From Qipengyuania xiapuensis (GTDB taxonomy: Bacteria; Pseudomonadota; Alphaproteobacteria; Sphingomonadales; Sphingomonadaceae), in the NCBI RefSeq assembly GCF_019711395.1, contig NZ_JAIGNL010000001.1, positions 1-64,000 of the forward strand: DNA of 64,000 bases, given 5' to 3'. Under the pieces are notes generated by a model. That model was not told the origin of the DNA. It saw only the letters and a program-made list of their open reading frames with translations, and did no database searches. Positions 6,854 to 45,011 of the stretch are shown piece by piece; positions within the stretch are counted from its first letter, which is position 1, and each line of letters opens with the position of its first letter. The position numbers and the translations under genes were made by a program.

Positions 6854-7390
6854 TCAGTCGCCCTCGAATTCCATCAGGGCTTGGACGGCGACATCACAGT
6901 CCTTGAGCCTGGTCGCACCACCCAGATCAGGCAGGTCGATGACGAAGAAGGCGTGCTCGACCCGCGCGCCAGCCTTGCGCAGCAACTCCGCGGTTGCGCA
7001 TGCGGTGCCGCCAGTGGCGAGGAGATCGTCGACCATTGCGACAAGCTGCCCTTCGCTCACCGAGGCGGGGTCCATTTCCAGCCTGTCCGAGCCATATTCG
7101 AGCGCGTAGTCGACGCCGATCGTGTCGCATGGAAGCTTGCCCGACTTGCGCACGGGCAGGAACGGCAGCGCGAGCTTTGCCGACACGGCGGCACCGAAGA
7201 TGAAGCCGCGAGCTTCCATTCCGGCGATGGCCTGCGCGCCGCTAGCGCTGACGCGATCGGCCAACCACTCCACGGTGGCAGCAAAGCCCTCGCCATTGCC
7301 GATCAGCGTGGTGATATCGCGGAACTGGATGCCCTCGATGGGAAAGTCGGGAATGGTCCGGACCAGCGATTTCAGCTCTTGCGGGGTAAT
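6854..7390 (-). CDS. apt: Adenine phosphoribosyltransferase (probable ATT start)
   Basis: 178 residues when started at ATT (7390-7388). It converts adenine and PRPP to AMP in purine salvage. The conserved N-terminal FRDITTL segment, the later GFIFGA, and the PRPP loop MVDDLLATGGTACATAELL are present. The first ATG/GTG/TTG in frame is GTG at 7273, which would delete the conserved PDFPIEGIQFRDITTL region. Upstream of it only ATT/ATC codons precede an in-frame TAG. A GGGAGA ribosome site lies 6-7 bases before the ATT, matching the usual family start (M-T-P-x-x-L-K). The start codon therefore appears to be ATT, as in infC. The gene follows the petABC terminator directly. Confidence 0.85.
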   Translation of the reverse strand: MTPQELKSLVRTIPDFPIEGIQFRDITTLIGNGEGFAATVEWLADRVSASGAQAIAGMEARGFIFGAAVSAKLALPFLPVRKSGKLPCDTIGVDYALEYGSDRLEMDPASVSEGQLVAMVDDLLATGGTACATAELLRKAGARVEHAFFVIDLPDLGGATRLKDCDVAVQALMEFEGD

Positions 7391-7403
7391 GATGCGTCTC
7401 CCG

Positions 7404-7444
7404 AAAATGAAAGCGCCCCTCGCATCGCTGGGATGGAGGGGCGC
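7404..7444 (-). terminator. Intrinsic terminator after petABC
   Basis: On the minus strand GCGCCCCTC and GAGGGGCGC form a perfect 9-bp stem with a 14-base loop, followed by TTTCATTTTC. It separates the bc1 operon from apt; the apt ribosome site lies immediately downstream of it. Confidence 0.75.
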
Positions 7445-7469
7445 GTTTCGTGTTCGCTAGCGAAGCAGC

Positions 7470-8318
7470 TTACTTCTTGGGCTTAACGGCAGCCCAGATC
7501 TGCTTCTTCGACATGTAAGCGAGGATCGTTGCGAAAAGCAGGAAGATCATCACCGGCCAGCCGGTCTGCTTGCGCTTGATCATGCTCGGTTCGGCAGTCC
7601 ACGCGAGGAACGCTGCGACGTCCGTGCTCATCTGCTCGATCGTTGCCTCGGTACCGTCGTCATAGGTCACCTGTCCGTCCGTCGTGAGCGGCGGTGCCAT
7701 GGCGAGGTTGAGGTTCGGGAAGTAGGAGTTGTGATACAGGCCCGGACCCGGTGCCGCCTCGGGGTACTCGGCCAGCAGTTCGGCGGAGGGTTCCTGGTAG
7801 CCGGTAAGCAGCGAAGCGACGTAGTTCACGCCATCCCCGCGCGCCTTGGTCATCAGCGAGAGATCCGGCGGGATCGCGTTGTTGTTGGCCGCGGCAGCCG
7901 CGACATTGTTCGGATAGGGCGACGGGAAATAATCCGTCGGCAAGCCGGGACGCATGGTCGCTTCGCCGGTGTTCGGGTCGATGCCCGGAACCTGCTTGGC
8001 AGCGGCATAGGCCTTCACCTGTGCTTCGGAGTAACCGAGCTGTTCGAGATCGCGGAAGGCGACGAACTTGAGGCTGTGGCAGGCAGCGCAGACTTCGTCA
8101 TAGACCTTGAGGCCGCGCTGGAGCTGCTGCTGGTCCCACTTGCCGAAAGGACCGGAGAACGACCAGTCGTAGTCGTTCGGCTTTTCGTAGGGCGCGTGGG
8201 GAACCGGCTCTTCGGTCGCAAGCGCGATGACACCGACCACGAGGGCCCAGAGTGCCGCTACCGCGAACACGAGGCCGACTGCCATGGCTACGAGGCGGAC
8301 GCTGAGGAGTTTGAGCAT
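7470..8318 (-). CDS. petC: Cytochrome c1 of the bc1 complex
   Basis: 282 residues. It carries electrons from the Rieske protein to cytochrome c on the periplasmic face. An N-terminal membrane/signal segment is followed by the heme c site CAACHSLK, a Met ligand in the LNLAMAPPL segment, and a C-terminal anchor helix (WPVMIFLLFATILAYM) that ends in basic residues. It is the last gene of the petABC operon, 24 bases after petB, and is followed by an intrinsic terminator. Length and motif order fit the alphaproteobacterial/mitochondrial type. Confidence 0.95.
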   Translation of the reverse strand: MLKLLSVRLVAMAVGLVFAVAALWALVVGVIALATEEPVPHAPYEKPNDYDWSFSGPFGKWDQQQLQRGLKVYDEVCAACHSLKFVAFRDLEQLGYSEAQVKAYAAAKQVPGIDPNTGEATMRPGLPTDYFPSPYPNNVAAAAANNNAIPPDLSLMTKARGDGVNYVASLLTGYQEPSAELLAEYPEAAPGPGLYHNSYFPNLNLAMAPPLTTDGQVTYDDGTEATIEQMSTDVAAFLAWTAEPSMIKRKQTGWPVMIFLLFATILAYMSKKQIWAAVKPKK

Positions 8319-22914: not shown

Positions 22915-23402
22915 GTTTGTTCCTGATCTATGCGCGCTCGGCCAATGGCGCGATCGGCAAGGACGGGGCTTTGCCCTGGCACCTTCCCGCCGATCTCAAG
23001 CGCTTCAAGGCGCTGACGATGGACAAGCCCATGATCATGGGCCGCAAGACCTTCGAGAGCCTGCCCGGCCTCCTGCCCGGACGCCGCCATATCGTGCTGA
23101 CGCGCAAGGAGCGCTGGGATTCGACCGGCGCGGAAGTCGTCCGTTCTGTCGAGGAAGCGATCGCGAAGGCAGGAGAAGGTGACATCGCGGTCATCGGCGG
23201 CGCTGCGATCTTCGACGTTTTCATGCCGCTCGCCGAACGGGTCGAGCTGACCGAGATCCACGAGGAATTCGACGGCGACGTCTTCATGCCGCCGCTCGGC
23301 CCCGAATGGGAAATCGCCGGCCGCGAGGACCACGAGGCGAAGGACGAGCGGCCTGCCTATTCCTTCCTGACCTACACCCGCGTCGGAGAGACTGCGGAAT
23401 GA
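22911..23402 (+). CDS. folA: Dihydrofolate reductase
   Basis: 163 residues. It reduces dihydrofolate to tetrahydrofolate with NADPH. Landmarks are IYARSANGAIGKDGALPWHL, with the proline-tryptophan loop and the usual acidic substrate residue in DLKRF, MIMGRKTFESL, and the cofactor site IAVIGGAAIFDVFMP. It is placed between purK and the dipeptidase gene with 4-base overlaps on both sides. No sign of a resistance-type (dfr cassette) variant. Confidence 0.94.
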   Translation: MSLFLIYARSANGAIGKDGALPWHLPADLKRFKALTMDKPMIMGRKTFESLPGLLPGRRHIVLTRKERWDSTGAEVVRSVEEAIAKAGEGDIAVIGGAAIFDVFMPLAERVELTEIHEEFDGDVFMPPLGPEWEIAGREDHEAKDERPAYSFLTYTRVGETAE

Positions 23403-36683: not shown

Positions 36684-36706
36684 CGAAAATCTTGTTCTAA
36701 TTCAGA

Positions 36707-36742
36707 CCCCTTCGAACCAATACTGGTTTGGAGGGGTTTTTT
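36707..36742 (+). terminator. Intrinsic terminator after etfA
   Basis: A 13-bp fully paired stem CCCCTTCGAACCA / TGGTTTGGAGGGG (two wobbles) with a four-base loop and six T. The T-run ends one base before the ATG of the next gene. Confidence 0.9.
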
Positions 36743-36743
36743 C

Positions 36744-37667
36744 ATGCGGTCGCTCGCCAAATTCATGTCGCCTTTGCTTGCAGCAACTTGCCTTGCCGGG
36801 GCCAATGCCGCCTCGGCGAAGGACGACCCGGAGCTCGTCCTGCTAGAGCCGTCGAGCTCGTGGAACCTCGACATGGGCGAACACAAGTGCCGCATCGCGC
36901 GGCTGTTCGGCGAGGGCGAGAACAAGACGATCTTCATGATCGACCAGTGGGACCCGTCGAAAATTGCGCAATGGACCGTCGCGGGGCCTGCACTGGAGAA
37001 ATACCGCAACGGGCGTGACACTTCGTTCGAATTCAGCGGCGGAGGCGATTCGGGCGAGTTCGAACTGCTGGGCTCGTTCTTCGGTGAGTTCGGGAACGCG
37101 ATCCAGAGTTCGAGCGGCTTCGTTGCTGACGAGCCCGATGATGACGGCGAAGACGAAGAACCCGACTATCTCGCCAATCCGCGCAGCCTGCCCGCACTCG
37201 ACGCCAAGGGCGCGGCGGGTATCGAGTGGCTGACCCTTTCCCAGCGCGGGCGCACGCCCGTCCGGCTCAAGCTGGGCTCGCTCGAGGCCCCGCTTGCGGC
37301 GATGAACGTGTGCATGGAAGACCTCGTCGAGTTCTGGGGCTTCGACGTGGAGGAGCAGCGAAAGGTCGCAAGCCCGCCCGAAGTAACGAACATGCCGAAG
37401 GTCGCGCGCGAGGTGGCCGAGCGTTATCCGGAATCCGCGCTAAGGCGGGGCGCGCAGGCGGACTTCCACATTCGCATGACCATCGACACGCAGGGCCAGA
37501 TCGAGAACTGCGTGCTCCTCAACCAGACGGCGGCGGACAATTTCGAGCTAGGCGGCCATCCCTGCACGGCCTTCGAGCGTTACGCGGAGATCGAACCTGC
37601 GCGCGACAAGGAAGGCCAGCCTGTCCGTACCTACCTGACCAATAGGATCGTCTACCGCATTCCCTGA
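36744..37667 (+). CDS. Secreted protein with TonB-C-like domain
   Basis: 307 residues with a signal peptide ending near ANAASA (~24). The central part has an acidic patch ([16 protein letters not shown]). The C-terminal ~95 residues resemble a TonB C-terminal domain: [20 protein letters not shown], then [16 protein letters not shown] and [16 protein letters not shown] TonB-box-binding or periplasmic role is possible but not shown. The start codon abuts the etfA terminator tail with no normal ribosome site between, so it may be translated from a read-through transcript or from an internal later start. Confidence 0.7.
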
Positions 37668-44610: not shown

Positions 44611-44904
44611 CTATTTCTCTCGGTCGCCATGCACCGCACCATTTGCGGCTCGACCACTCTCTAACCCGCTTGATTTGCCATGAGTTAAATCAGCTTGGTT
44701 AACAGGCCGTTTACTTTCTTCGTCGCTTTCGCGGCGAACTTCGCCGAAAGCCTCGAACCCCCCGGTCTCGGATTTCGACAGTTCCTCGCGCAGCTCGCGA
44801 GTCGCCGACAGCTTCGCGACCAGGTCGGTCCAGCGAAACTGGTGCAAAACGTCGGATTCGCGCCCCTGCACGAATGCCTTCTTGTTGATGTGCCCCTCGA
44901 ACAT
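44611..44904 (-). CDS. Small charged hypothetical protein upstream of sciP
   Basis: 97 residues from ATG 44904 (MFEGHINKKAFVQGRESDV); an earlier ATG at 44961 is possible. The first half looks structured (LHQFRWTDLVAKLSATRELR); the second half is polar and low in hydrophobics. Its stop touches the sciP start codon, so the two are coupled. The function is unknown; position suggests a cell-cycle role. TTAA half-sites within its 3' end may instead belong to a sciP promoter. Confidence 0.6.
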   Translation of the reverse strand: MFEGHINKKAFVQGRESDVLHQFRWTDLVAKLSATRELREELSKSETGGFEAFGEVRRESDEESKRPVNQADLTHGKSSGLESGRAANGAVHGDREK

Positions 44905-45011
44905 GCGACTCGGAATAGTCCAACATGGTAAAGAGTCTGTGAAACATCGCATCGCAGGCATTCCAAGGGAAATGCTGGAGGCGCGCGGCCAAGGCGTGTA
45001 AGGGGCGCGCC

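Follow-up and report, generated by a model that had tools for sequence, protein, structure and literature searches.

Start codons of the AUH class (AUA, AUC or AUU) are very rare outside infC. The pcnB gene of Escherichia coli is one that starts at AUU, and it is translationally limited. For infC itself, the start codon is AUA in Staphylococcus aureus, and the E. coli gene is subject to autoregulation by IF3 (PMC13009471). The same report puts AUU and AUA starts in S. aureus at about 10% of the output of an AUG reporter in poor medium, with the ccpN start reaching up to 30% of AUG output in rich medium (PMC13009471). In Streptomyces, the sigR gene has a GTC start that is repressed by IF3, according to a second report (PMC5472188).

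The gene for adenine phosphoribosyltransferase (apt) in one lineage of Qipengyuania in all likelihood also starts at AUH, with AUU in the DNA analyzed here, AUC in most relatives and AUA in one, as judged from the sequence and its conservation. The DNA in question is a stretch of 64,000 nucleotides from Qipengyuania xiapuensis, referred to below as the window. Codons of the corresponding class in DNA (ATA, ATC or ATT) are written ATH, and ATG, GTG and TTG are called standard.

The probable apt start site in the window

The features of the locus are as follows, with the basis of each in parentheses.

6854..7390, minus strand: apt, adenine phosphoribosyltransferase, 178 amino acids from ATT, stop codon TGA at 6856-6854 (NCBIfam profile matches)
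7390-7388, minus strand: ATT, probable start codon of apt (sequence, and relatives with ATH in 11/11 clade members)
7402-7397, minus strand: Shine-Dalgarno sequence GGGAGA, 6 nt before the ATT (sequence; its core GGAGA identically placed in 11/11 ATH members)
7409..7449, minus strand: GC-rich, terminator-like hairpin in the petC-apt interval, T-rich on its 3' side (fold of 7480-7370)
7459-7457, minus strand: TAG stop codon 5' of apt and in frame with it (sequence)
7470..8318, minus strand: petC (cytochrome c1), upstream neighbor of apt (ORF list; match in relatives)

The order along the minus strand is thus petC stop codon (7472-7470), hairpin (7449-7409), GGGAGA (7402-7397), an ATC (7393-7391) and the ATT (7390-7388). 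The identity of the gene is well supported, since its product scores above the cut-off for adenine phosphoribosyltransferase with two NCBIfam profiles, NF002634 (208.2 bits, cut-off 170) and TIGR01090 (186.2 bits, cut-off 185.85). A genome search found a single Apt match in the genome from which the window comes.

The initial annotation of this DNA had read the ATT as the start codon of apt, and this reading stands: the codon is at the position claimed, and the relatives described below strengthen the case. The details offered in its favor were also borne out. The GGGAGA is well spaced for the ATT, with a gap of 6 nt, and no ATG, GTG or TTG occurs in the window sequence between the in-frame TAG and the ATT. 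The first standard codon on the 3' side is a GTG at codon 40, and a start there would remove 39 residues, including the FRDITTL motif. Annotation restricted to ATG, GTG and TTG would therefore either cut these 39 residues off Apt or miss the start. From the ATT, the codons that follow are ACC CCG CAA GAG CTG AAA, and the N-terminus reads TPQELKSLVRTIPDFP...FRDITTL. The window has two tandem ATH codons, ATC ATT, of which only the second is kept in all 11 of the genomes with an ATH start; the codon preceding codon 1 is ATC in the window and in one other of these genomes (locus L005).

We take the upstream neighbor to be petC from its CAACH heme motif, and the name also fits the place of the ORF after those for cytochrome b and the Rieske protein; the NCBIfam scan assigned no family to this ORF (7470..8318). 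A petC match lies 5' of apt in 59/59 genus loci, at a distance of 7 to 94 nt. The hairpin that the initial annotation had placed between the two genes is present, with a folding energy of -39.6 kcal/mol for 7480-7370 (z -3.64). A scan for consensus terminators listed none between petC and apt; the scan allows loops of up to 8, and the loop here is longer if the bulge is disallowed. With Rfam, no cis-regulator was found near apt (four sub-threshold matches, E 1 to 2.6), and at gathering score the whole window gave only two tRNAs and nothing at the hairpin.

A comparable hairpin was found in 18 of the 20 rows that were folded, namely 11/11 ATH members and 7/9 others. The two rows that lack it, L130 and L136, have short petC-apt gaps of 7 and 16 nt. 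In locus L015 the hairpin is kept with a different stem sequence. A pet-apt operon that needs far less Apt than cytochrome bc1 would explain both the hairpin and weak starts at apt. This is a suggestion only, because L136 lacks both the hairpin and a weak start; L130 has a weak start (TTG) and no hairpin.

Conservation of the ATH codon within the genus

Sixty genomes of the same genus were searched, and apt was found in 59 of them (G037 had no match; in G006 the gene is broken between two contigs, and the 5' part was used). The codon aligned to the ATT of the window is ATG in 42 genomes, ATC in 9, TTG in 4 and ATT, ATA, GTG and CTC in one each. ATH therefore occupies codon 1 in 11/59 genomes, window included (G000, G001, G004, G013, G022, G032, G054, G056, G057, G058 and G059). 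The row with CTC (L138) differs at the N-terminus, and a standard codon is found there nine codons 5' of the CTC. Weak standard starts occur in 5 of the 48 genomes outside the ATH group, in more than one lineage: TTG in L024, L129, L130 and L132, and GTG in L133.

The 11 ATH genomes form one clade (support 97/90) on an apt tree that was built from codon 2 on, with 58 rows and the partial L139 left out. The gain of ATH requires one change on this tree, versus a mean of 10.3 when the states are shuffled, and one change in 98% of 200 bootstrap trees. The occurrence of ATH at the same place in 11/59 genomes that make up one clade argues that it is not there by chance, and a mean pS of 0.60 within the clade shows that these genomes are not a set of near copies. 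The sequences thus indicate that the ATH start was very probably inherited from one origin. The start is a trait of the clade, in most members as ATC, and not of this strain alone. The comparison with relatives, which the initial annotation had proposed, bears on the objection it named, an ATG miscalled as ATT. With ATH in the 10 other genomes of the clade and ATG in none, such a miscall is very unlikely.

Searches by sequence pattern gave a similar picture. The original pattern recovered the ATH start in 10/60 genomes, missing G057 because AGG stands there where the pattern wants CGN. With relaxed patterns, the 59 genus loci gave 11 ATH and 42 DTG (standard) starts, and 80 named loci gave 0 ATH, 32 DTG and 2 CTG. 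In a family-wide sample, the ATH pattern was found in 2/397 genomes, both of the ATH clade, and the DTG control in 83/397. The absence of ATH elsewhere in the family is weakly supported, because the control picks up roughly one genome in five and the sample included only 10 genomes of the genus.

The sequence around the codon behaves as expected for a start site. In an alignment of the 11 genomes anchored at codon 1, GGAGA at -11 to -7 is invariant and positions -6 to -1 are all variable, while codon 1 has invariant A1 and T2 and a third base of C, T or A. A strong Shine-Dalgarno sequence is found in 11/11 genomes (full GGGAGA in 7/11), with duplex energies of -6.6 to -9.5 kcal/mol. The energy is weaker than -6.5 kcal/mol in 17/42 genomes with an ATG start, in a comparison that ignores relatedness, and GGAG also occurs near the apt start in 24/48 genomes outside the clade. 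In all 11 genomes the sequence from the in-frame stop on the 5' side to codon 1 is free of standard starts. In G057 this interval holds only ten codons before the ATA, none of them ATG, GTG or TTG.

Within the clade, pN/pS is 0.171 for codons 2-57 and 0.177 for codons 58-178. Codons 2-17 have a pN of 0.059 and a pS of 0.484, and the six triplets 5' of codon 1 have a pN of 0.398 and a pS of 0.490. Because codons 2-57 are constrained like the rest of the gene and the upstream triplets are not, coding constraint sets in at the ATH codon or immediately 3' of it. All 11 genomes combine the lack of a usable ATG, GTG or TTG with an ATH where conserved coding starts. Over the whole gene, pN/pS is 0.176 in the clade versus 0.322 in 18 ATG-start genomes with apt of the same length, which are a more diverse set. 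The motifs FRDITTL and VDDLLATGGTA, the latter presumably the PRPP-binding segment, are intact in 11/11 genomes.

These data allow other readings of the codon to be weighed. The ATH might be accidental and translation of Apt might begin further 3', for instance at a CTG at codon 6. A CTG is indeed present at codon 6 in 10/11 ATH genomes, and its use would cost five residues, but L008 has CTC, and the first ATG common to all 11 is codon 58, with no shared ATG, GTG or TTG before it. Moreover, a start at codon 6 would stand 21 nt from the conserved GGGAGA, and any downstream start leaves the invariance of A1 and T2 unexplained, which makes this reading highly improbable. No better placed is the idea that the ATH is an internal isoleucine codon of a longer protein with a non-standard start further upstream. 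ATC, ATT and ATA are exactly the isoleucine codons, and isoleucine coding predicts the same pattern at this codon. However, the upstream triplets evolve as non-coding sequence, the invariant GGAGA stands directly upstream of the codon, and the stop in G057 lies only 11 codons 5' of the ATA. The distance from the petC stop to codon 1 also varies within the clade (76, 77, 78 or 79 nt) by differences not divisible by three. An error of sequencing or assembly, or an apt gene in decay, has the least to recommend it: the agreement of 11 genomes on ATH speaks against error, and the low pN/pS over the clade, together with the two intact motifs, speaks against decay. Since relatives share ATH within one clade, behind an invariant GGAGA and with coding constraint from codon 2, we consider an error, a pseudogene or a downstream start very unlikely, and return to ATH as the probable start.

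An exploratory codon test compared 60 coding-like ORFs of the window with two relatives. Of the listed ORFs that had synonymous changes in the 15 codons before the first standard start, apt gave the lowest ratio, with a pN of 0.05 and a pS of 0.69. The flag rule averages over everything upstream of that start, the non-coding leader included, and for this reason apt went unflagged (pN 0.16, pS 0.44). Three ORFs were flagged and then rejected, two being antisense to Pfam-supported genes and the third (36684-37664) owing its flag to a terminator-like stretch between genes, 5' of an ordinary ATG. Raw similarity to the two relatives proved too noisy as a base rate, because antisense frames also align. 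Of ten ORFs of the window whose first standard start comes late, Pfam matched 8, and the best-scoring stretch always began 3' of that start, so no second clear case came to light among them. Two open frames may be mentioned separately. The first, at 44684-44998 on the plus strand, has 105 codons, lacks a standard start 5' of codon 67 and shows a weak coding signal (pN/pS 0.40); its translation is of low complexity with no Pfam match, and it is probably antisense or non-coding. The second, at 22931-23356 on the minus strand, has 142 codons with the first standard start at codon 24 and a moderate coding signal before it (pS 0.39, pN 0.15). Its translation is also of low complexity, it is partly antisense to a plus-strand ORF from 23183, and it is probably not a gene.

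Yield, IF3 and selection

The best account of initiation at apt is that the initiator tRNA would read AUH with a mismatch at the third position, helped by the strong GGAGA at fixed spacing; the observed ATH codons match the initiator anticodon at positions one and two. The AUG start would have been replaced once, at the base of the 11-genome clade, and AUH kept since then. Synthesis of Apt would be low and set at initiation, and initiation would be open to discrimination by IF3, as for infC. We infer from the comparative data that the ATH codon is used in vivo. By analogy, it is likely that the AUH start lowers the yield of Apt, with about an even chance that a low yield is useful to the cell, and control by IF3 is plausible. 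Weak translation and a response to IF3 are what would be expected of apt from the examples of ccpN, cvfC1 and citZ in S. aureus and sigR in Streptomyces.

The genus also appears, from its sequences, to use a start of the AUH class for infC. An ATA follows GGAG in 30/30 infC loci examined (10 of the ATH clade; infC had a match in 59 genomes). The stretch from the ATA on reads IARPPRRS in 29/30 and ISRPPRRS in one (L146). A definite assignment is held back by in-frame ATG codons at codons 9 and 11 in 30/30 and by a standard codon further 5' in 5/30. The infC gene of the window's own genome (L140 near base 1450; G000:C2, shortly before 606812) has an ATA after AGGAG as candidate start. Should infC start at this ATA, feedback by IF3 as in E. 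coli is likely.

It is tempting to connect the two genes. Both apt (AUH) and infC (AUA) would then belong to one class of starts rejected by IF3, the level of Apt would track IF3 supply or the state of the ribosomes, and selection would have maintained a weak start from the origin of the clade on; we regard this combination as rather unlikely. A reading with a probability somewhat short of one half is that AUH is the start but serves no purpose by being weak. On this view AUG was lost in a mildly deleterious change that became fixed once, after which the third base drifted among C, T and A. The single origin of ATH on the apt tree agrees with this, and the use of TTG (4/59) and GTG (1/59) in other lineages of the genus implies that apt tolerates weak starts. 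G is also missing from all 11 genomes at 44/171 four-fold sites of apt and petC, so that its lack at a third position is not unusual; among 40 four-fold sites with C in at least nine of the 11 genomes, 26 are without G. On the other side, selection in prokaryotes at large maintains AUG starts and favors a return to AUG, as stated in PMC5622118. The reconstructed switches given there are 202/5,080 from GUG to AUG and 363/61,358 from AUG to GUG, with a single switch from AUG to AUU among 61,358 ancestral AUG starts (PMC5622118). The 11 genomes, at their level of divergence, also all hold AUH with none back at AUG. This non-reversion was considered as a stand-alone proof of selection and fails the control with four-fold sites, and third-position drift alone could explain the lack of return to ATG. 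Since G may be missing through chance drift, what the data support is a very probably genuine, inherited AUH start, and not selection for it.

Comparison with described systems

Among the matches listed in searches of the open-access literature, nothing was on point for apt with a non-AUG start, which is weak evidence of novelty, or for Erythrobacter with ATT starts. The closest parallels lie in other genes. In infC of E. coli and other bacteria, as in apt, an AUH start follows a strong Shine-Dalgarno sequence. The two differ in that IF3 itself senses the infC start, closing a feedback loop, while Apt has no known part in initiation. The pcnB gene resembles apt in being a chromosomal gene other than infC with an AUU start and a limited yield; it is a different gene, and its start was tested by experiment, whereas that of apt is known from sequence comparison.

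In S. aureus, ccpN (AUA), cvfC1 (AUU) and citZ (AUA) likewise combine AUH with a strong Shine-Dalgarno sequence, and for ccpN and cvfC1 the start is conserved across relatives, as it is for apt (PMC13009471). The evidence differs in kind: ribosome profiling for ccpN and cvfC1 and reporters for all three, as against comparative evidence for apt (PMC13009471). The sigR gene of Streptomyces resembles apt in having a genus-conserved non-standard start in one gene, behind a strong Shine-Dalgarno sequence. It departs from apt in using GTC rather than AUH and in that its dependence on IF3 was demonstrated, while that of apt is deduced (PMC5472188 for sigR).

The apt lineage offers a metabolic gene in which AUG was apparently lost once and AUC, AUU and AUA were kept, and thereby a natural series in which to ask whether selection favors weak starts. 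The mechanism at its start is an ordinary one, and what is unusual is the gene and the persistence of the codon. The apt gene is a new lineage-conserved case beside infC, pcnB and ccpN, by a mechanism that is not new.
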